From contig JAPOQE010000046.1 in NCBI GenBank assembly GCA_026710875.1, positions 1 through 41,892 of the forward strand: 41,892 nucleotides of DNA. The letters run 5' to 3'. Position 1 is the stretch's first letter; every line of letters starts with the position of its first letter. A program made the translations under genes and the position numbers. Origin of the DNA: Gammaproteobacteria bacterium. GTDB lineage: Bacteria; Pseudomonadota; Gammaproteobacteria; UBA4575. The notes beneath the pieces are model-generated. The model made no database searches, was not told where the DNA came from, and saw only the letters and a list, made by a program, of their open reading frames with translations. Shown here in pieces: positions 7,330-30,489 of this stretch.

Positions 7330-10104
7330 TCAGCCAGTACTACCAATTCCTGCTGCGACACAGTTGATAGACAAAAGCAGGGGAACCAGAATATTTTGCC
7401 TGTCCAGAGTTTTGTCTTGCTCATTGCGAAACTTTTTGACTAACTCGGCCTGTTCAATACCCACCTGATTCAAAGACTTCAGACGCCTGTTGAAGTGTCT
7501 TTTAAAGTTCGGAAAACGGTCACACAGCTGGTCTTCACCTGTGATCTGCAAGACCATTTCCGTTGTACGCTCATACTCAGATCTAATCGCTGAGTAAATT
7601 GCTTGGCTGTACTGGCTGTTAACCACCAGTTCTACATATTTTTCAGCAACTTGCAAGTCGACTAACAACAACGTTTTCTCTACGCTGTCTAGTATCAACC
7701 GAAACAAGGAATGCTTGATGTACAGCTCCTGCAATAATTCTTTCCCTCGTTCTCCCCGGATGCTGATCAGTTGCTCAAAACTGCTCCCGACCCCGTACCA
7801 TCCTGGGACCAAAATACGGTTTTGCGTCCAGGCAAATACCCAGGGTATAGCGCGTAAGTCATCGAGAGTTGTCGCGCCAAACCTGCTTGAAGGCCTTGAT
7901 CCGATTTTCATAAGTGTCAGTTCTCCAACGGGACTTGCCTGCTGATAGAAATCTACTAGACCCGGTGTTTCAATTAACTTGCGGTACATGACATACGCTG
8001 TCCCCGAAAGTGCTTCCATGACTTCATCGAGCTCGGCATTGATTTGGAAAGCAGGGTCTTTGCCTGACATCAGTGTGTGTGTGAGTGCGCTGGAAGCGAG
8101 GATTTCCATCTGTTCTTCCGCAAAACCACGGTTTGCATACTTGTACGATACGACTTCGCCCTGCTCTGTGACTCGCATGCGTCCATCAATTGTACCTACG
8201 GGCTGAGCCGCAATGGCACGACCGCTGGGTGCGCCACCCCGACTTACCGAGCCGCCACGACCATGAAAGAATGAAGCAGGAATTTTGTGCTTGTCCCCGA
8301 CCTCCTTGATTCGAGTCTGTGCCTTACTGATGATCCAATTGGAAGTAAGAAATCCGCCATCTTTGTTAGAGTCCGAGTAGCCCACCATGACCTCTTGAGA
8401 CTCTCCATTCCTGCGTATCGTTCGCCTGATAAATCCGTATTCGAGCAATTCATTCAAAATAGAGGGCCCCTGTTCCAGGGCCTCTATGGTCTCCAATAAA
8501 GGTACGACCAGAATCCGACAGGCTTCCAAACCATCGCCATCCGTAAACAGTCCCGCATACTTCGCTAACAGGTATACCCCTAGCACATCAGTTGATGTCT
8601 GCGTCATGCTGAGTATGAAGGCGCCAAACGTGTCCGGGTCCAGTTTGCCTTGATAGTGCTTAACCTGTGCAAGCATGGTTAACGTGGATTGAGCACGGTC
8701 TGAAAGAAAATCAGTGTTTGGAATTACGCGTAGTGGCCGCATCAGTTCGCTAACAACCCACTCTTTCCATTCATCTGATTTAAAATCTGGAACATCAAAG
8801 TGTGTTTTCTGATGCAAGGTTTGCCAGATTTCTGCAAGAACATTGTTTGTTACGGTTGTATTCTCGCGAAGATCCAGGCTGACTGTTCGAAAGCCGAAGG
8901 TATCTACCATATGTCGCAATGGCGATAAGTTTGACCGGCTCAGGTGCTCACAGCGGGCATCATCCAGTCCACGCTCGAGTGTCCGCAAATCGTTTGCCAG
9001 ATCGGATGCGCTACGATAGGCGATATCTGATTTTGTTGGGTCATCAATATTTTGCAGTGTCGCGTCAATGCTGCGCAGCATACAACTCAGGTACTGTCTG
9101 AATACCTCGCCAGGATTTTGTTTCGAAAAGGATTCTGTCTCTTCCAGCATTTCGAGTTTTTTATCAAGGGCTTCGATGAAGTCCTCAGAAACTCTTAATG
9201 AATGGCTGGCAATGCTAAGCTTGGCACCGAGCTTGATTAAATCCTGACGATACCGCTTCAGACTCGCACGGGCATTTTCACGAATAGCAAATGCGGTAAC
9301 TTTGGCATCTACATCCGGATGACCATCTCGATCACCACCTATCCAGGATCCAAACCGGAAAACGGGTGGTATTTCAAATTCAATGTGCGGGTACATTTTT
9401 CTCAAGGCACGATTTAATTCAGCATAAAATCTCATCACGCCATCAAACAAAGATTCCGTAAAAAAGTGCAGGCCCCATGTAACCTCTTGGGCAACGGTAG
9501 GCTTTTCCAGGCGGATTTCACCTGTCAGCCAGAGAAGATCGATCTCATTGCGCAATTCGTGAATGAGTTCATCGCGTTCGCGAGGTGTCCAGCGCGTCAG
9601 TTCTAATTGCTTGAGCAGTATGTAAATTCGCCTGTGAATTTCCAGTACGGTTACACGCTTAGCCTCAGTGGGGTGTGCAGTAATTACCGGGCAGATAAAG
9701 CTCTTGTTGAGTATCTTCTGAATTTCTTCTGCCGGAACATTGTGCTGGGCTGCCATGGAAAATGTATATGCGAAAGTTCCTGGCACACGGCGACGCCCGT
9801 ATTCCTTTTCTATCTGGCGGCGCTGCTGCACCGTTGCATTTTGCTCAGCGATGCTGAGTAGCTGAAACCAGATGCCATGTGCCTCCAATATGTACAGAAT
9901 CTGTGAATCTGTGCTTTCACGAATGTCTCGATGGCCCTCTATGAAGGCTTCTATATCCGGTTGCCGGGTCCGCAGTACACTCAGTAGCTCTTTGTACAGC
10001 AGGTCTACAAGCTTGCTCTCATAGCTTGCAGCCGGGTCAATAATGGCACGTCCAGTAGCAACCCGGGTCAGTTGGGTCCAGGAAAGTGGAGAAATATCAC
10101 TCAT
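7330..10104 (-). CDS. ppc: Phosphoenolpyruvate carboxylase
   Basis: A 924-residue PEPC with ITAHPTEAKR (catalytic His about 144), VGYSDSNKDGGFLTS, HGRGGSVSRGGAPSGR and IPWVFAWTQNRILVPGWYG motifs. It carboxylates PEP with bicarbonate to oxaloacetate, the CO2-fixing step of the serine cycle. The length fits the family (about 880-960). The C-terminus reads AAGIGSTG, whereas well-studied enzymes end RNTG or QNTG; the terminal glycine is kept. The start codon is preceded by a hairpin (10107-10136) rather than a ribosome site. Placement between hprA and mtdA within the C1 cluster supports a dedicated assimilatory enzyme rather than a purely anaplerotic one. Confidence 0.96.
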   Translation of the reverse strand: MSDISPLSWTQLTRVATGRAIIDPAASYESKLVDLLYKELLSVLRTRQPDIEAFIEGHRDIRESTDSQILYILEAHGIWFQLLSIAEQNATVQQRRQIEKEYGRRRVPGTFAYTFSMAAQHNVPAEEIQKILNKSFICPVITAHPTEAKRVTVLEIHRRIYILLKQLELTRWTPRERDELIHELRNEIDLLWLTGEIRLEKPTVAQEVTWGLHFFTESLFDGVMRFYAELNRALRKMYPHIEFEIPPVFRFGSWIGGDRDGHPDVDAKVTAFAIRENARASLKRYRQDLIKLGAKLSIASHSLRVSEDFIEALDKKLEMLEETESFSKQNPGEVFRQYLSCMLRSIDATLQNIDDPTKSDIAYRSASDLANDLRTLERGLDDARCEHLSRSNLSPLRHMVDTFGFRTVSLDLRENTTVTNNVLAEIWQTLHQKTHFDVPDFKSDEWKEWVVSELMRPLRVIPNTDFLSDRAQSTLTMLAQVKHYQGKLDPDTFGAFILSMTQTSTDVLGVYLLAKYAGLFTDGDGLEACRILVVPLLETIEALEQGPSILNELLEYGFIRRTIRRNGESQEVMVGYSDSNKDGGFLTSNWIISKAQTRIKEVGDKHKIPASFFHGRGGSVSRGGAPSGRAIAAQPVGTIDGRMRVTEQGEVVSYKYANRGFAEEQMEILASSALTHTLMSGKDPAFQINAELDEVMEALSGTAYVMYRKLIETPGLVDFYQQASPVGELTLMKIGSRPSSRFGATTLDDLRAIPWVFAWTQNRILVPGWYGVGSSFEQLISIRGERGKELLQELYIKHSLFRLILDSVEKTLLLVDLQVAEKYVELVVNSQYSQAIYSAIRSEYERTTEMVLQITGEDQLCDRFPNFKRHFNRRLKSLNQVGIEQAELVKKFRNEQDKTLDRQNILVPLLLSINCVAAGIGSTG

Positions 10105-10219: not shown

Positions 10220-11191
10220 TTAAACCAGCTTGTCTTTTGGTGTATCGCCCGCTTCAAATGCAGCCAGGTTTTCCAGTACACGATTACCCATTGCAATACG
10301 TGTCTCAGTTGAGGCACTGCCTAAATGAGGCAGCAGCACGGCATTTTCTAATTCAAGGAAACGCTTGTCCAGGTTGGGTTCGCCTTCAAATACATCCAGG
10401 CCCGCACCCGCAATCGTGCCATTTTTTAACGCCTCAATTAATGCATCATTATCGATCACGTCACCACGCGCCGAATTGATGAGAAATGCGCTGGGCTTCA
10501 TTTTGGCCAGATTTTCCTTGTTCAGGAGATGGTAGGTTTCTTTGCCGCCCGGGCAGTGAATGGACACGAAGTCCGAATTTGCAAGAACCTCGTCGATCGA
10601 TTCGTATTGAGTCGCATTGAATTTCTTTATAACTTCATCAGAGGGGGGGTAGGGATCCACGAAGATTATCTTCATTCCAAAGCCATGATGTGCTCGCTTT
10701 GCCATAGCCTGCGCAATTCGTCCCATGCCGATCATGCCCAGGGTTTTGCCGGTCACTTTGGTGGCCAGCAAGTGTGTAGGCCGCCAGCCTGTCCACGCAT
10801 TGGCACGCAGGTGGCGTTCCCCTTCACTCGTACGCCTTGCTGCGGTTAACAGTAATGTCATTGCAATATCTGCTGTGCAGTCGGTAAGCACCTCTGGTGT
10901 ATTGGTTACGGTCAATCCGCGGGCTTTGGCTGCATCCAGGTCAATGTGGTTGAATCCTACCCCAAAATTGCCGATGAACTTGGCTCGCAGTGGCTCAGCA
11001 CTTAATACTTCCGCATCGACGGGATCCGTCACGGTGGGCAGAAACACATCGCAATTGCCCAATGCCGCTTTCATTTCGTCCTTGGTCATGGCAACGTCAG
11101 TCTCATTCAGTTGCACGTCATATTTTTCTTTCAGTGTAGCTTCCACTTCTGCAGGCCAGGCGCGCGTGACGATGACTTTCAATTTGCTCAT
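10220..11191 (-). CDS. hprA: Hydroxypyruvate reductase (glycerate dehydrogenase)
   Basis: A 323-residue D-isomer-specific 2-hydroxyacid dehydrogenase: Rossmann loop GMIGMGRIAQAMA (152-164), catalytic Arg242 in NSARGDVID, Glu271 in DVFEGEPN and His289 in LLPHLGS. Within this cluster the logical reaction is NAD(P)H reduction of hydroxypyruvate to D-glycerate, the step after serine-glyoxylate aminotransferase. Glyoxylate reductase activity is likely as a side reaction. An AGGAG site lies 8-9 bases before the ATG; the gene starts 12 bases after the mtkB stop. The sequence alone could not exclude another 2-hydroxyacid substrate; the specificity rests on gene context. Confidence 0.9.
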   Translation of the reverse strand: MSKLKVIVTRAWPAEVEATLKEKYDVQLNETDVAMTKDEMKAALGNCDVFLPTVTDPVDAEVLSAEPLRAKFIGNFGVGFNHIDLDAAKARGLTVTNTPEVLTDCTADIAMTLLLTAARRTSEGERHLRANAWTGWRPTHLLATKVTGKTLGMIGMGRIAQAMAKRAHHGFGMKIIFVDPYPPSDEVIKKFNATQYESIDEVLANSDFVSIHCPGGKETYHLLNKENLAKMKPSAFLINSARGDVIDNDALIEALKNGTIAGAGLDVFEGEPNLDKRFLELENAVLLPHLGSASTETRIAMGNRVLENLAAFEAGDTPKDKLV

Positions 11192-11203: not shown

Positions 11204-12094
11204 CTAGGCAAGATCTTTCAAGACCCTTTCCATGGTTGATCCGAGTTCAGAGGGGTCTGGTGCAACAGTGACTCCGGCTTTCTCAAGCATCTCCACCTTC
11301 TCAGCAGCACTTTCGCCTTTGCCAGATACAATAGCACCCGCATGGCCCATGCGACGGCCTTTAGGTGCTGTCAGTCCTGCAATGTAGGCAACCAACGGTT
11401 TGGTCATGTGATTTTTAAAATATTCCGCAGCATCAGCTTCCTGAGGCCCCCCAATTTCACCAATCAGCATGACAGCCTTTGTTTCTGGGTCCGCTTCGAA
11501 TAACTCAAGGATGTCGCGGTGAGAGCAACCGTTGATCGGGTCACCACCAATTCCAACACTCGTGCTGATACCGATCCCGCATGCCATCATTTGAGATGCA
11601 GCCTCATAACCAAGTGTGCCTGAACGTGCAACAATGCCTACATTTCCAGGGATGTAAATGTGTCCCGGCATTATGCCGAGGAGACATTTTTCAGGACTGA
11701 TCGTTCCGGCACAGTTGGGGCCTGTCAGCCGCATCCTGTCTTCTTTCTTGTAGCGGTACATGTAACGCTTTACAAGCATCATATCCTGCGCAGGAATGCC
11801 ATCAGTGATCGCAACACAGGTCTTGATACCCGCATCGGCTGCTTCCATGATTGAATCAGCAGCGAATGAAGCAGGTACAAATACGATGCTGGCATCGGCG
11901 CCCGTTTCTTCTACGGCATCTTTCATTGTGTTGAAGACAGGAAGTTCGAGATGGGTTTGTCCGCCCTTGCCAGGAGTAACGCCGCCGACTACTTGGGTAC
12001 CGTATTCGAGCATTTCCTTTGCATGGAAAGTACCTATTTTCCCTGTGAAGCCCTGGATCAGTACCTTGGTATTGTTATCAATCATTATGCTCAT
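11204..12094 (-). CDS. mtkB: Malate-CoA ligase (malate thiokinase) alpha subunit
   Basis: A 296-residue protein of the succinyl-CoA synthetase alpha fold: IQGFTGKIGTFHAKEML CoA-binding start, GPNCAGTISP, and GRRMGHAGAIVSG with the phosphorylated His251. In serine-cycle clusters this paralogue partners MtkA to form malyl-CoA from malate, CoA and ATP. AGGAG precedes the ATG by about 8 bases. It starts 16 bases after the mtkA stop. Adjacent malyl-CoA lyase and PEPC make the malate specificity far more likely than succinyl-CoA synthetase (SucD), although the fold is the same and the sequence by itself would also match SucD. Confidence 0.9.
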   Translation of the reverse strand: MSIMIDNNTKVLIQGFTGKIGTFHAKEMLEYGTQVVGGVTPGKGGQTHLELPVFNTMKDAVEETGADASIVFVPASFAADSIMEAADAGIKTCVAITDGIPAQDMMLVKRYMYRYKKEDRMRLTGPNCAGTISPEKCLLGIMPGHIYIPGNVGIVARSGTLGYEAASQMMACGIGISTSVGIGGDPINGCSHRDILELFEADPETKAVMLIGEIGGPQEADAAEYFKNHMTKPLVAYIAGLTAPKGRRMGHAGAIVSGKGESAAEKVEMLEKAGVTVAPDPSELGSTMERVLKDLA

Positions 12095-12110: not shown

Positions 12111-13289
12111 TTATGAGGCTTCAACGACGCGGTTGCGTTCTGCTACAACTTTTTCTGCAGCTTCAGATAACGTGTCTGCAGTGATGACGGGGTAGCCACT
12201 GTCTTTGAGCATCTGCATACCTTTTTCAACATTCGTTCCCGAAAGACGCACTACTACAGGGGTTTTTACATCGAGTTTGCCGAATGCCTGTATTACGCCC
12301 TCTGCAATCCAGTCACAGCGGTTGATGCCTGCAAATATGTTGACCAGCATTGCTTTTACTTTTTCATCATCCAGGACAAGCCTGAACGCCTTCGTTACCC
12401 GATCCGGTGATGCGCCGCCCCCAATATCCAGAAAGTTGGCTGGCTCGCCACCTTTGTGCTTGATCATGTCCATGGTTGCCATGGCCAATCCTGCACCATT
12501 GATCATGCAGCCAATGTCTCCATCCAGGCCCACATAGCTCAGACCTCTGTCAGATGCCGCAGTTTCGCGCGAGTCTTCCTGAGACTTGTCACGTAACTCT
12601 GAGATCTTCGGTCTGCGAAAGAGGGCGTTATCATCAAAGCTCATCTTGGAATCCAGTGCCAAGATGTGATTGTCCTTGGTAACGACCAAGGGGTTGATTT
12701 CCACCAGGGTGGCATCAAGTTCACGAAAGGCACTGTAAGCGCCCTCGATACAATGCACTGCTTGGCTGATCATCTCAGGATGAATGTCGAGAGCAAAAGC
12801 AAGTTCCCTAGCCTGAAAATCCCGCAAGCCCACTGCAGGTTCAACTTCCAGTCTGTAAATGGTTTCCGGCTTCGTGGCGGCCACTTCTTCAATATCCATA
12901 CCACCTTCTGAAGAGGTAACTATAACGACCCGCTGCTTGTTCCGGTCCAGTACCAGGGCAAGATAAATTTCGCGTTCTATGTCTGAAACCTGCTCGATAT
13001 AGAGCCGGTATACTACTTTCCCACTCGGGCCGGTCTGATGAGTCACCAGACGCTTGCCAAGTAATTCCTCAGCGGCGTTCCAGATCTCCTCGTCGTTCGA
13101 ACAGACCTTGATCCCACCGGCCTTGCCTCGTGCACCGGAATGAATCTGTGCCTTGACCACCCACTGGTGTCCGCCTATTTCCTTGGCTCGGTAGACTGCT
13201 TGCTCCGGGCTGTATGCCAGCCCGCCAGGCGAGATCGCCACGCCAAATTCCGATAGTAATTCTTTCGCTTGATATTCATGAATATCCAC
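12111..13289 (-). CDS. mtkA: Malate-CoA ligase (malate thiokinase) beta subunit
   Basis: An ATP-grasp protein of 392 residues beginning [15 protein letters not shown], with [16 protein letters not shown] and the glycine-rich [14 protein letters not shown] and [17 protein letters not shown] CoA-ligase motifs. It is the nucleotide-binding subunit that acts with MtkB. I chose the GTG at 13289 over the ATG at 13295: the strong GGGAGG site lies about 8 bases before the GTG but only two before the ATG, and the family normally begins at M-[DN]-[IV]-HEYQAKE. A long structured spacer separates it from mcl. As with mtkB, context distinguishes it from SucC. Confidence 0.9.
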
Positions 13290-13334
13290 TAGCATTCCCT
13301 CCCGAGAATAATAATTCGTTTTTGCCGTGATGCC

Positions 13335-13465: not shown

Positions 13466-14407
13466 TTAAGACTTGGCAGCAATGGCTTCCGCAGCGCGCA
13501 CAATATTTTCAGCCATACGCGCAGATGCTGCATCGATCATTTTGCCATCGAGTGAGGCAGCACCTTTGCCCTCTTTGGCAGCTTTTTCCAGTTCTTCAAG
13601 AATCCTTTTGGCCTTGTTCGTCTCAGCTTCAGGCGGTGTAAAAACTTCATTTGCCAGGTCAATCTGCTTGGGATGAATGGCCCACTTGCCCTCACACCCT
13701 AGCGCAGCAGCACGTCGCGCGGCCAGAAGATACCCATCAGGATCGTCGAAATCACCGAATGGTCCGTCAATCGGGCGGAGTCCATAGGCCCGGCAGGCGA
13801 CTGTCATACGCGAGATTGCAGCATGCCATTGATCGCCAGGATAATCAGGATTCAAGCCGCCAATATTGACAGTACGTGCACGGTTGCTTGCAGCATAATC
13901 GGCAACACCGAAATGCATGGCTTCCATACGCGTACTGGAGGTAGCAATGGCTTCAACGTTTGCCATACCCAAAGCGGTCTCGATAAGGGCTTCAAGACCA
14001 ATTCGGTTTTCCAGTCCCTTGGCCTCCTCGATCTGGGTAACCATGGCATCGACCATATAGACATCACCGGTTGTCCCCACTTTAGGAATGAGTATGGTGT
14101 CAAGTTTGCTACCTGCCTGTTCAACTACATCCACCACATCGCGGTACATATAGTGTGTGTCCAACCCATTGATGCGTACTGAAACCGTTTTTCCGTGACC
14201 TTTCCAGTCAAACTCATTTAATGCGGCAATTACATTTTTTCGTGCCTGGACCTTGTCATCCGGTGCTACGGCATCCTCAAGGTCAAGGAATACATAATCT
14301 GCGTCACAGGTCAGTGCTTTTTCCAGCATCCTGGGATTGGACCCGGGCACAGCAAGTTCACAACGCTGTAATCGCTGTCGGGCCGGTTTGTATTGAGTAA
14401 AGCTCAT
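13466..14407 (-). CDS. mcl: Malyl-CoA lyase
   Basis: A 313-residue HpcH/HpaI-CitE superfamily enzyme. It shows DYVFLDLEDAVAPDDK (metal/CoA site), RINGLDTHYMYRD, TILIPKVG, LEALIETALGMANVEAIA, MHFGVADYAASNRART and GCEGKWAIHPKQIDLAN, which together are typical of the serine-cycle malyl-CoA lyase. It cleaves L-malyl-CoA to acetyl-CoA and glyoxylate, closing the cycle and regenerating the acceptor for Sga. An AAGGA site lies about 9 bases before the ATG, ten bases after the sga stop, so the two are co-transcribed. Citrate-lyase-beta or beta-methylmalyl-CoA lyase are the alternative family functions, less likely here. Confidence 0.94.
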   Translation of the reverse strand: MSFTQYKPARQRLQRCELAVPGSNPRMLEKALTCDADYVFLDLEDAVAPDDKVQARKNVIAALNEFDWKGHGKTVSVRINGLDTHYMYRDVVDVVEQAGSKLDTILIPKVGTTGDVYMVDAMVTQIEEAKGLENRIGLEALIETALGMANVEAIATSSTRMEAMHFGVADYAASNRARTVNIGGLNPDYPGDQWHAAISRMTVACRAYGLRPIDGPFGDFDDPDGYLLAARRAAALGCEGKWAIHPKQIDLANEVFTPPEAETNKAKRILEELEKAAKEGKGAASLDGKMIDAASARMAENIVRAAEAIAAKS

Positions 14408-14417
14408 TTTGATTTCC

Positions 14418-15674
14418 TTATGATTTCTTCTTCATTTTGGTGCGTGCCTCACGAGGCGCCTTGGCTGAACCGAATTTTTTGATTTTTTTGGCAGTCTTGC
14501 GGTAGTACTCTCCGGCTGCGGCGACTCCGCTACCTGGTTTTACCTTCATGCCAGCATCCCGCATCGCCATTTCCACAGTGCCTAGGACTGCCATCATACG
14601 TGCTTCGTTGTTGTCTCCGAGATGCCCGATACGGAACACCTTGCCGGCTACTTTGGACAACCCAGCGCCAAGAGAAATATTGTAGCGGTGATAGGCAATA
14701 TGGATCACTTCAGCTGCGTTAACACTGGGAGGCACTTCAATTGCAGTCACAGTGTCAGAGTACCACTTGGGTGACTTCGCACAGGGTTTGAGCCCCCAGC
14801 CCCTGACTGCTTTGCGCACGCCTTCCGCCAACCGGTGATGACGCTTGAACACGTTTTCCAAACCCTCATCCATGAGCAAGTCAATTGACGCCCGCAGTCC
14901 CCGCAGCATGGGTACCGAGGGAGTGTAGGGGAAATACCCGTCTTTGTTGGTGTTGATATGATCCTGTATGTCAAGAAAACAACGCGCACACTGGGCCTGT
15001 TTTCGTGCTCTGAGTGCCTTTGGGCTGAATGCAACGATGGCCATGCCCGCAGGTAACATGAATCCTTTTTGTGATCCACTGACCGCCACATCTACACCCC
15101 ATTGATCCATGCGGAAATCAATGCTCGCAATTGAACTTACTCCATCGACCATCAGCATAGCCGGATGCTTGACGGCATCCATGGCCCGGCGCAAACCAGC
15201 GATATCACTGGTCACACCGGTTGCAGTTTCGTTATGACAAACTACCACTGCACGGATTCTGTGCTCTTTATCCGCAGCAAGGATGCGCTTGAATTTGGCA
15301 ATCGGAACACCTTCGCCCCAAGGGGTTTCAACCAGATCAACCTCCAGGCCAATCCGGCATGCAAGGTCATACCACAGGTGACTGAACTGACCAAAGCGTG
15401 TAGTGAGTATCTTGTCTCCGGGAGACATAGTATTGGCCAAGGCGACCTCCCAGCCGGCAGTCCCAGTGGCTGGAAACAGAAAGCAGGTGCCCCTGGTGGT
15501 TTTGAAGATTTTTTTGCAGTCGCGAAGCAGGGGTTTGACAAGTTCTGGAAAATCAGGCGCCCGGTGGTCCTCTTGAGGGACAATCATGGCATTTTGCACG
15601 GCCTGAGGAATATGGGTCGGGCCTGGTGCAAACAGGTAATTTCGTCCAGGAAATGATAATTTTTCGCTAGGCAT
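14418..15674 (-). CDS. sga: Serine-glyoxylate aminotransferase
   Basis: A 418-residue class V PLP aminotransferase. FAPGPTHIP at the start, PATGTAGWEVALAN, VDGVSSIASIDFRMD and the PLP lysine in SGSQKGFMLPAG (Lys203) identify the alanine/serine-glyoxylate group. It transfers the serine amino group to glyoxylate, giving hydroxypyruvate and glycine. An AAGGA site about 9 bases before the ATG supports the start. The C-terminus has a lysine-rich tail (about 385-418, repeated KK and KMKKKS) beyond the usual end. Mcl follows by ten bases; fhcD lies 263 bases upstream across a palindrome-rich spacer. Confidence 0.95.
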   Translation of the reverse strand: MPSEKLSFPGRNYLFAPGPTHIPQAVQNAMIVPQEDHRAPDFPELVKPLLRDCKKIFKTTRGTCFLFPATGTAGWEVALANTMSPGDKILTTRFGQFSHLWYDLACRIGLEVDLVETPWGEGVPIAKFKRILAADKEHRIRAVVVCHNETATGVTSDIAGLRRAMDAVKHPAMLMVDGVSSIASIDFRMDQWGVDVAVSGSQKGFMLPAGMAIVAFSPKALRARKQAQCARCFLDIQDHINTNKDGYFPYTPSVPMLRGLRASIDLLMDEGLENVFKRHHRLAEGVRKAVRGWGLKPCAKSPKWYSDTVTAIEVPPSVNAAEVIHIAYHRYNISLGAGLSKVAGKVFRIGHLGDNNEARMMAVLGTVEMAMRDAGMKVKPGSGVAAAGEYYRKTAKKIKKFGSAKAPREARTKMKKKS

Positions 15675-15768
15675 AATTAAAAATCCTTATTGTGAAATTT
15701 GATAAAATTCGTAAGCGCCTTGATTGTTGTTCCTGTTGTCAGAACAGATAATTCCGCATGCAAGAAGC

Positions 15769-15905
15769 TACTGTCCGAAAAACCCAGCATCTTGCCATAA
15801 GGACAGTACCTGACTCAAGCAATTTGGGTAATTGATGGAAGGCTCAAACTTGAGTGGAGGCTGTCTCCAAAGCCTCCACAGGCCCTGTATGCAGAAAGTC
15901 AGGGC
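15769..15905 (-). ncRNA. Tandem-hairpin spacer between fhcD and sga (candidate RNA element)
   Basis: Four perfect inverted repeats are packed in 137 bases: TACTGTCC (15769-15776) with GGACAGTA (15801-15808); ACTCAAG (15813-15819) with CTTGAGT (15849-15855); GTGGAGGC (15854-15861) with GCCTCCAC (15872-15879, 10-base loop); and GCCCTG (15882-15887) with CAGGGC (15900-15905). A fifth, CTGTT/AACAG, lies at 15733-15746. The second and third arms overlap by two bases, so those stems may compete. No T-run follows, and no convincing small ORF occupies it. Possible roles are attenuation, mRNA processing between fhcD and sga, or an operator region for a separate sga promoter. Confidence 0.45.
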
Positions 15906-15937
15906 TCTGCAGGGTGTAGTACGCTCAAATCCCTGGA

Positions 15938-16855
15938 TTAAGGCTGCTTTTCAGGGTGCAGGAAGATAAAGCTTTTGCCCAGTCGCCCGCCATAGTTGCC
16001 AGCAGAAATCATGCTCAAGCCCGGCGTGTCCACCGAAGCCCTGATGGCCGCCTGAGTAGCATCAATGATGGGCTGCATGCCTTGACCATTCATGATGATT
16101 TCCATTACTGAATGCACCCCTTTCGGGAGTCCTGCCTCGACATCCGGGTTATCCTGCAACAGCGGGCAAAACTTCTCATAGGTGCTGGCAATAGTGAAGT
16201 CATAATTGCTGCCTGCCTTTGAGCCGCTTCCCGCAATTCCCCCCGGGAAGGTCGTGATGACACCGGGCAGGGGCAGTATAGCTTCAACACCCTTTTCCGC
16301 GGCTTCAAGCGCAGAGTCCACACTGTCTCCGAAGAACCACAAATTGCCACCCATCAGGCCGTCTGCATAACCGAGTCGACGATCCATAATGAATTCGCCT
16401 CCCAGGATCGGGATCCACCACATTTTTCTACCAAAGCGTTCGATGCGTCTTTGGTAACCGTTACCGAAGTAGGCTACCTTGCGCCCCATGTGGTAGTAAT
16501 CTTCTGAATCGATCAGGTTAAAGCACGAAGCCGTTGGGCAGGTGAGTACATTCTGGCTGAGACGAACCAGCGCCGAACGCTCCAGTGCCTGGACCCGGTC
16601 CTTTCTGAAACGCGGAATATGCAGTTGTATGATTGCTCCCGGGCGCCCATCTGGCGTGACAAATGCCTCATCTCCGCCAGGCCCTACATAGCGGTCCATG
16701 CCTGCTTCACAGTCACACAGGATCGAACTGGATGCATTTCCAGTTGCAGCATGCACGGCATGGTCCAGCCACTTTCGGTCACGAGCGGTAATCAGGAATT
16801 CGGTATACAGACTCCTGAATGCTTCAGCGTACGTATCATCGATAATTGCTGGCAT
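15938..16855 (-). CDS. fhcD: Formylmethanofuran:tetrahydromethanopterin formyltransferase
   Basis: A 305-residue member of the Ftr/FhcD family, with RKMWWIPILGGEFIMDRRLG, GGNLWFFGDS, ILPLPGVITTFPGGI and SGSKAGSNYDF motifs in the expected order. In methylotrophs FhcD is a subunit of the formyltransferase/hydrolase complex that moves formyl from formyl-H4MPT and releases formate in formaldehyde oxidation. The partners fhcA, fhcB and fhcC are not adjacent, unlike the usual fhcABCD grouping. The ATG is two bases after the cyclo-ligase stop, with AAGGGA as ribosome site, so the two are translationally linked. The family identity is clear. Confidence 0.92.
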   Translation of the reverse strand: MPAIIDDTYAEAFRSLYTEFLITARDRKWLDHAVHAATGNASSSILCDCEAGMDRYVGPGGDEAFVTPDGRPGAIIQLHIPRFRKDRVQALERSALVRLSQNVLTCPTASCFNLIDSEDYYHMGRKVAYFGNGYQRRIERFGRKMWWIPILGGEFIMDRRLGYADGLMGGNLWFFGDSVDSALEAAEKGVEAILPLPGVITTFPGGIAGSGSKAGSNYDFTIASTYEKFCPLLQDNPDVEAGLPKGVHSVMEIIMNGQGMQPIIDATQAAIRASVDTPGLSMISAGNYGGRLGKSFIFLHPEKQP

Positions 16856-29802: not shown

Positions 29803-30489
29803 ATGGGTTTTGAAACACTTAGTGCTATGAAAGCACGCGAGGTGGAGTTACAGCAGACTGTATTTTTGCCGGATGAAATACAGGTAGGAAGCTTTCTTGG
29901 CAGGGGTCGGCGTTCATTTTCCTACAAGGGAAAATATGAAAATCAAGATGTTGTCATCAAGGTTTACAGAAGGGAGTTTGTTGAAAAGTATCAACAAAAA
30001 TGTAGTGTTGATATTGCAGAATTTGAGTTCGAGCGCAATACGAATCTATATCGCATTGATGATATAAGGCAATATATTTCGAGACCTTATAAGGTTTTCA
30101 AATATGACAGTGGTTATACACATTCATTCGTACAGGAGTATGTAGAGGGCATCACACTTAAACAACTAATCAATCAGTCAGGATTTCTTCCTAAAGAAGT
30201 CCTAGATGCTGGGTACAAGATTGTCAAAATTGCAGAGGCTAATGGAGTACACGATATTGATATCAGTCAAGGCAACATCAAAGTAACTCGAAGAAAAGGG
30301 GTTTGGATCCCCAAGTTGTACGATTTCAATCTGTTACCCCAGCACATTAGTCCCCCCAACCTACTTATAGCTTTAGGTATCAAGTTGGGGCTGCGTAGGA
30401 AGTCATGGAGAGACTACAGAAGTTTAAAATGTTGGAAAAAAGCAGGTATGCAACAACGGTCATTAAACATGCAGCAAAATAGTGAATAA
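29803..30489 (+). CDS. Small kinase-fold protein in envelope island
   Basis: A protein of 228 residues that keeps the protein-kinase core: a glycine-rich loop LGRGRRSFSYKG (about 32-43), a lysine in VVIKVY (about 53), a catalytic loop HDIDISQGNI (about 150-159, with Asp and Asn correctly spaced) and YDFN in place of DFG. The active-site residues are therefore present, unlike a pseudokinase. It resembles Kdo/heptose kinases or small Ser/Thr kinases; I cannot assign a substrate. An ATG at 29803 is used; GTG at 29800 and an ATG at 29827 are alternatives, none with a clear ribosome site. Its stop overlaps the start of the next gene. Confidence 0.65.
   Translation: MGFETLSAMKAREVELQQTVFLPDEIQVGSFLGRGRRSFSYKGKYENQDVVIKVYRREFVEKYQQKCSVDIAEFEFERNTNLYRIDDIRQYISRPYKVFKYDSGYTHSFVQEYVEGITLKQLINQSGFLPKEVLDAGYKIVKIAEANGVHDIDISQGNIKVTRRKGVWIPKLYDFNLLPQHISPPNLLIALGIKLGLRRKSWRDYRSLKCWKKAGMQQRSLNMQQNSE

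Follow-up and report, generated by a model that had tools for sequence, protein, structure and literature searches.

We asked whether the closely packed inverted repeats between fhcD and sga, in an uncultured gammaproteobacterium of the UBA4575 lineage, control the genes that follow them. The initial annotation had proposed that they do, from their position at the point where the tetrahydromethanopterin part of an operon gives way to its serine-cycle part. The window, i.e., the whole stretch of DNA analysed (41,892 nt), belongs to an assembly of 1.8 Mb in 171 contigs. All of the genes named here are encoded on the minus strand, so any RNA would be the reverse complement of the sequence as it was initially read, and the fhcD-sga spacer occupies 15675-15937. 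The genes are:

15938..16855, minus strand: fhcD, formylmethanofuran--tetrahydromethanopterin formyltransferase, upstream of the spacer (NCBIfam NF002554, above the cut-off)
14418..15674, minus strand: sga, putative serine--glyoxylate aminotransferase, named from its context
13466..14407, minus strand: mcl-like, malyl-CoA lyase / CitE family, named from its context
12111..13295, minus strand: mtkB, malate--CoA ligase subunit beta (NF010647, above the cut-off)
11204..12094, minus strand: mtkA, malate/succinate--CoA ligase subunit alpha
10220..11191, minus strand: hprA-like, glyoxylate/hydroxypyruvate reductase family
7330..10104, minus strand: ppc, phosphoenolpyruvate carboxylase

The fhcD product scored just under the cut-off of a second model, TIGR03119 (one_C_fhcD). 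For the sga product (14418-15674), the best NCBIfam match was BhcA, L-aspartate--glyoxylate aminotransferase (602.9 of 650 bits, below the cut-off); the name sga was given because of the neighbouring genes.

Inverted repeats in the spacer

The four perfect inverted repeats attributed to 15769-15905 are all present, though the third, described as 8 bp long, is in fact of 9 bp. Running a script on the exact segment, we located an 8-bp repeat, TACTGTCC/GGACAGTA (stem 1, 15769-15776 with 15801-15808), a 7-bp repeat, ACTCAAG/CTTGAGT (stem 2, 15813-15819 with 15849-15855), a 9-bp repeat, GTGGAGGCT/AGCCTCCAC (stem 3, 15854-15862 with 15871-15879), and a 6-bp repeat, GCCCTG/CAGGGC (stem 4, 15882-15887 with 15900-15905). 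As had been noted, two of them share bases (the 7- and 9-bp repeats overlap by two), and no coding gene accounts for the segment, no ORF of at least 100 aa being listed within it.

The pairing is also unusually dense. When scored against 1000 dinucleotide shuffles of 15769-15905, the segment’s 23 disjoint paired bases compared with a mean of 5.5 and were reached by 0/1000 shuffles, and 2% of the shuffles had at least four repeats; since the segment was chosen after the fact, these values overstate the significance. Sliding 137-base segments along the window, we found 3/1671 that scored this high, the fhcD-sga spacer among those three. By the same score, the densest segment of the window lies elsewhere, at 29826-30112. 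In RNA folding, the segment gave a z of -3.3 on the plus strand, which is not the gene strand, and of -2.2 on the gene strand; when the entire spacer and its flanking sequence were folded on the latter strand, z was -1.1.

A conserved site and predicted promoter upstream of sga

Comparing the spacer with those of four sister genomes of the same genus, we found that its conservation is confined largely to one part: identity was 42.6% at 15828-15937, 87.5% over the 40 bases of 15788-15827, and 64% in the predicted sga leader. Likewise, when the spacer was searched by blast against 55 genomes, same-genus matches began only at query position 111, in the half that holds the predicted promoter, and the conserved core was also matched in other genera of the family. 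Read on the minus strand, the conserved site (15789-15818) is TTGAGT-18-CAAGAT with an extended -10, TATGG, and the core as a whole is CCAAATTGC-TTGAGT-N18-CAAGAT, with N18 ending in TATGG. The distance from the fhcD stop to the -35 in five same-genus genomes is 119 (window), 110, 109, 103 and 41 nt (the last in sister genome G002). The parts of the spacer are:

15828..15937, minus strand: fhcD-proximal part, containing stems 3 and 4 and one arm of stem 2; not conserved, with many gaps in the alignment
15819..15827, minus strand: CCAAATTGC box adjoining the -35 on its upstream side, identical throughout the genus and A/T-rich in other members (alignment, group consensus)
15813..15818, minus strand: -35-like box TTGAGT; TTGAG precedes sga in 27 loci from two clades
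15795..15812, minus strand: 18-nt promoter spacer, with TATGG at 15795-15799 and an arm of stem 1 at 15801-15808
15789..15794, minus strand: -10-like box CAAGAT (CATTAT in many relatives), the sole such site in the genome
15675..15783, minus strand: predicted 5' leader of sga, ~107-109 nt by its distance from the -10, with a putative start 6-8 nt after the -10

Among close relatives, 27/28 loci carry TTGAGn-17/18-CAnnAT upstream of sga, with TGG preceding the second box, namely every one of the 17 family loci examined and 10 from a marine clade that does not belong to the family; many of these 27 are close relatives and not independent, and some of the “invariant” letters were set by the search pattern itself. 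The boxes are 17 nt apart in 17 loci and 18 nt apart in 10, and while this length holds, the sequence between them varies between genera, except that it ends in TGG (nearly always TRTGG). In shuffled upstream sequences the pattern arose in 2/10800 cases. A genome-wide search of 19 genomes with TTGAN{14,15}TRTGGCANNAT returned 18 matches, 17 of them at sga (a reversed control pattern returned one), such that a search for a regulon in these genomes yielded essentially sga only; with a single site per genome, no regulon could be seen. A locus in another family, whose sga is 78% identical, has no more than a variant of the site (TTGGTG-17-CATATT with TGTGG), TTGAAG-18-CATGAT with TGTGG precedes an sga of greater distance (63% identity), and in a class-wide set of 27 loci (most sga at 55-66% identity) the strict site was found upstream in only three.

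Gene order indicates to which gene the site belongs. The marine clade and the family’s other genera have the order fhcD-folD-site-sga (folD being identified from its sequence), whereas in the window’s genus folD is gone from between fhcD and sga (window 15675-15937) and the site still lies directly upstream of sga. Thus, with or without folD in between, the conserved site belongs to sga. Each genome of the window’s genus carries a divergent folD (43-46% identity) elsewhere (G000:C62:18729-19607), and this C1-pathway gene has apparently been replaced in the genus.

Sigma-70 promoters with an extended -10 keep a fixed distance between their boxes, leave the spacer sequence free and retain A2, A5 and T6 of the second box; those with TRTGn before the -10 tolerate poor hexamers. 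We read the site as a promoter of this type because its distance is fixed, its spacer sequence is free and A2, A5 and T6 are kept. In all 27 loci the two boxes stand 17 or 18 nt apart, inside the 16-19 nt of this type, with a variable sequence between them, and TGG, nearly always as part of TRTGG, directly precedes the -10. The -35 departs from the type in reading TTGAG instead of TTGACA and in its own strong conservation. The window’s hexamers match TTGACA at 4/6 and TATAAT at 3/6 positions (the relatives’ CATTAT at 4/6), which places them below the 9-of-12 cut-off of a consensus promoter scan that reported none at the fhcD-sga spacer.

Given a site that is conserved, nearly unique in each genome and associated with sga, we consider it very probable that the spacer carries a dedicated sigma-70-type promoter driving sga-mcl-mtkB-mtkA-hprA-ppc. 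RNA polymerase would recognise TTGAGT (15818-15813), TATGG and CAAGAT (15794-15789) on the minus strand, and transcription would start 6-8 nt past the -10, leaving ~110 nt before sga. The transcript would presumably serve the whole set from sga to ppc, either independently of read-through from fhcD or on top of it. So understood, the promoter would be of an ordinary kind, a well-defined instance of a conserved operon promoter and not a hairpin switch.

The conserved block may at the same time be the binding site of an activator, e.g., a LysR-type protein resembling QscR, that overlaps the promoter, an idea we hold tentatively and that would refine the promoter reading while remaining compatible with it. 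Within the genus, conservation reaches past the hexamers to CCAAATTGC and the promoter spacer, as an activator site would predict, yet beyond the genus only the promoter-like blocks persist. A precedent is offered by Methylobacterium extorquens, in which QscR activates the serine-cycle genes, according to Kalyuzhnaya and Lidstrom (2005) as cited in PMC9320726.

Stems and leader in related genomes

The four same-genus genomes used to compare the stems share the fhcD-sga neighbourhood of the window. We sought an intact stem in them, and every stem was broken or absent: the pairing positions kept were 3-5/8 for stem 1, 3/7 for stem 2, 0-5/9 for stem 3 and 0-4/6 for stem 4, and G002 altogether lacks the stretch that holds stems 3 and 4. 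No compensatory changes were found in stem 2 among the same-genus sequences; stems 1, 3 and 4 show a few two-sided changes, in a set of five sequences with one third of the cells unpaired, and most of these changes fall where the alignment is poor. An RNA consensus fold of the whole spacer within the genus was weak and contained no convincing helix. The lack of compensatory changes in relatives, which the initial annotation had named as grounds for abandoning its proposal, is therefore what we found, pairing being broken in all four sisters. The other ground it had named, that the segment might be a dispersed repeat, does not apply: the spacer is single-copy in its own genome, its other matches there being only 18-21 bases long with E above 0.4.

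Stems 3 and 4 could instead fold into a 3'-terminal hairpin of the fhcD mRNA, acting as a stabiliser or weak terminator in the window species and two sisters, which we regard as unlikely. In the same stretch, G001 carries a 9-bp CAGAAACCC/GGGTTTCTG hairpin and G003 a TACGGGGA/TCCCCGTA hairpin; however, no T-run follows the stems, the hairpin is absent in G002, and the fold z values in the five genomes are -1.7, +0.7, -1.6, +1.2 and +0.1. A terminator scan returned no terminator-like site at the spacer.

It is highly improbable that the stems act as a cis-acting RNA switch (a riboswitch or attenuator), within fhcD read-through or the sga leader, to control sga-mcl-mtk. The excess of pairing over shuffles, the location of the stems directly before sga and the two-sided changes noted above would favour such a switch, but the breakage of all stems in sister genomes and the absence of compensation in stem 2 argue against it, as does the layout of the promoter. 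In the minus-strand reading, the 7-bp repeat supplies the -35 box with its CTTGAGT arm, and the 8-bp repeat has its TACTGTCC arm within the promoter spacer; with one arm each upstream of the predicted start, stems 1 and 2 cannot form in a transcript begun at that point, and the whole of stems 3 and 4 falls upstream of the promoter. The suggestion that the overlapping repeats could switch thus finds no support. An Rfam scan of the window at the gathering score gave no match.

The leader itself was folded as a consensus in three groups and gave weak structures (-6.3, -5.3 and -3.3 kcal/mol) without a convincing conserved helix, and for this reason we claim no riboswitch. The leader holds the other arm of the 8-bp repeat (15769-15776); it begins close to a TTTTTCGG run that the family conserves, and most family members retain a TTTTCG run at this start. 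Leaders of related genera (L018-L022) contain short hairpins, e.g., AGCTCCG...CGGAGCT in L018, that are unshared with the window’s genus; we considered whether such group-specific 5' hairpins represent one common structure, which the leader consensus folds do not support. In the variant-bearing locus of another family (L093:2749-2900, minus strand; genome G197), sga follows an unrelated gene and keeps TGTGG-CATATT, and its leader contains a hairpin followed by a T-run that resembles an intrinsic terminator, AAAAAGCCGCC...GGCGGCTTTTTT, which could be an attenuator.

A sigma-54 promoter (GG at -24, GC at -12; TGGCA ... GC) was rejected as an exceedingly improbable reading of the site: TGGCA is conserved and GC stands at the right distance in most of the marine clade, but only 1/17 family members have GC at positions 14-15, leaving 16/17 without GC at -12, and the ever-present TTGAG at 17-18 nt is not needed by sigma-54.

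Taken together, these comparisons indicate that the four inverted repeats are peculiar to this genome and partly built on the predicted promoter’s own letters. The proposal that sga-mcl-mtk is controlled from this spacer holds to the extent that a conserved control element is present there; that the repeats are this element is not supported.

Parallels and meaning

The nearest parallel to the predicted sigma-70-type promoter is found in Methylorubrum extorquens, in which transcription starts have been mapped upstream of sga and the Pqsc1 boxes are TTGAAT-17-CATCGA (PMC9320726). As with Pqsc1/Psga, transcription would start before sga of a serine-cycle set from a two-box, sigma-70-like layout. 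The systems differ in that the M. extorquens leader is 343 nt long (table in PMC9320726) versus the ~110 nt predicted here, and in that M. extorquens is an alphaproteobacterium with the operon order sga-hpr-mtdA-fch; the likeness described here is one of layout.

It is conceivable, if rather doubtful, that TTGAG-17/18-CAnnAT, TRTGG and the TTTTCG start region together make up a single-gene promoter that has stayed almost unchanged in two separate gammaproteobacterial clades because an unrecognised C1-responsive regulator, or a control at the start region (e.g., through a T-run at the transcript start), acts on it to set serine-cycle flux.

More generally, dense perfect inverted repeats in one genome, taken without comparison, are poor evidence for a riboswitch, and attention at this locus shifts away from the hairpins, which are not conserved, towards a precise 30-base control site, which is. 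For uncultured methylotrophic gammaproteobacteria, which lack genetics, the predicted start and its boxes would provide a concrete target for the study of carbon-assimilation genes.
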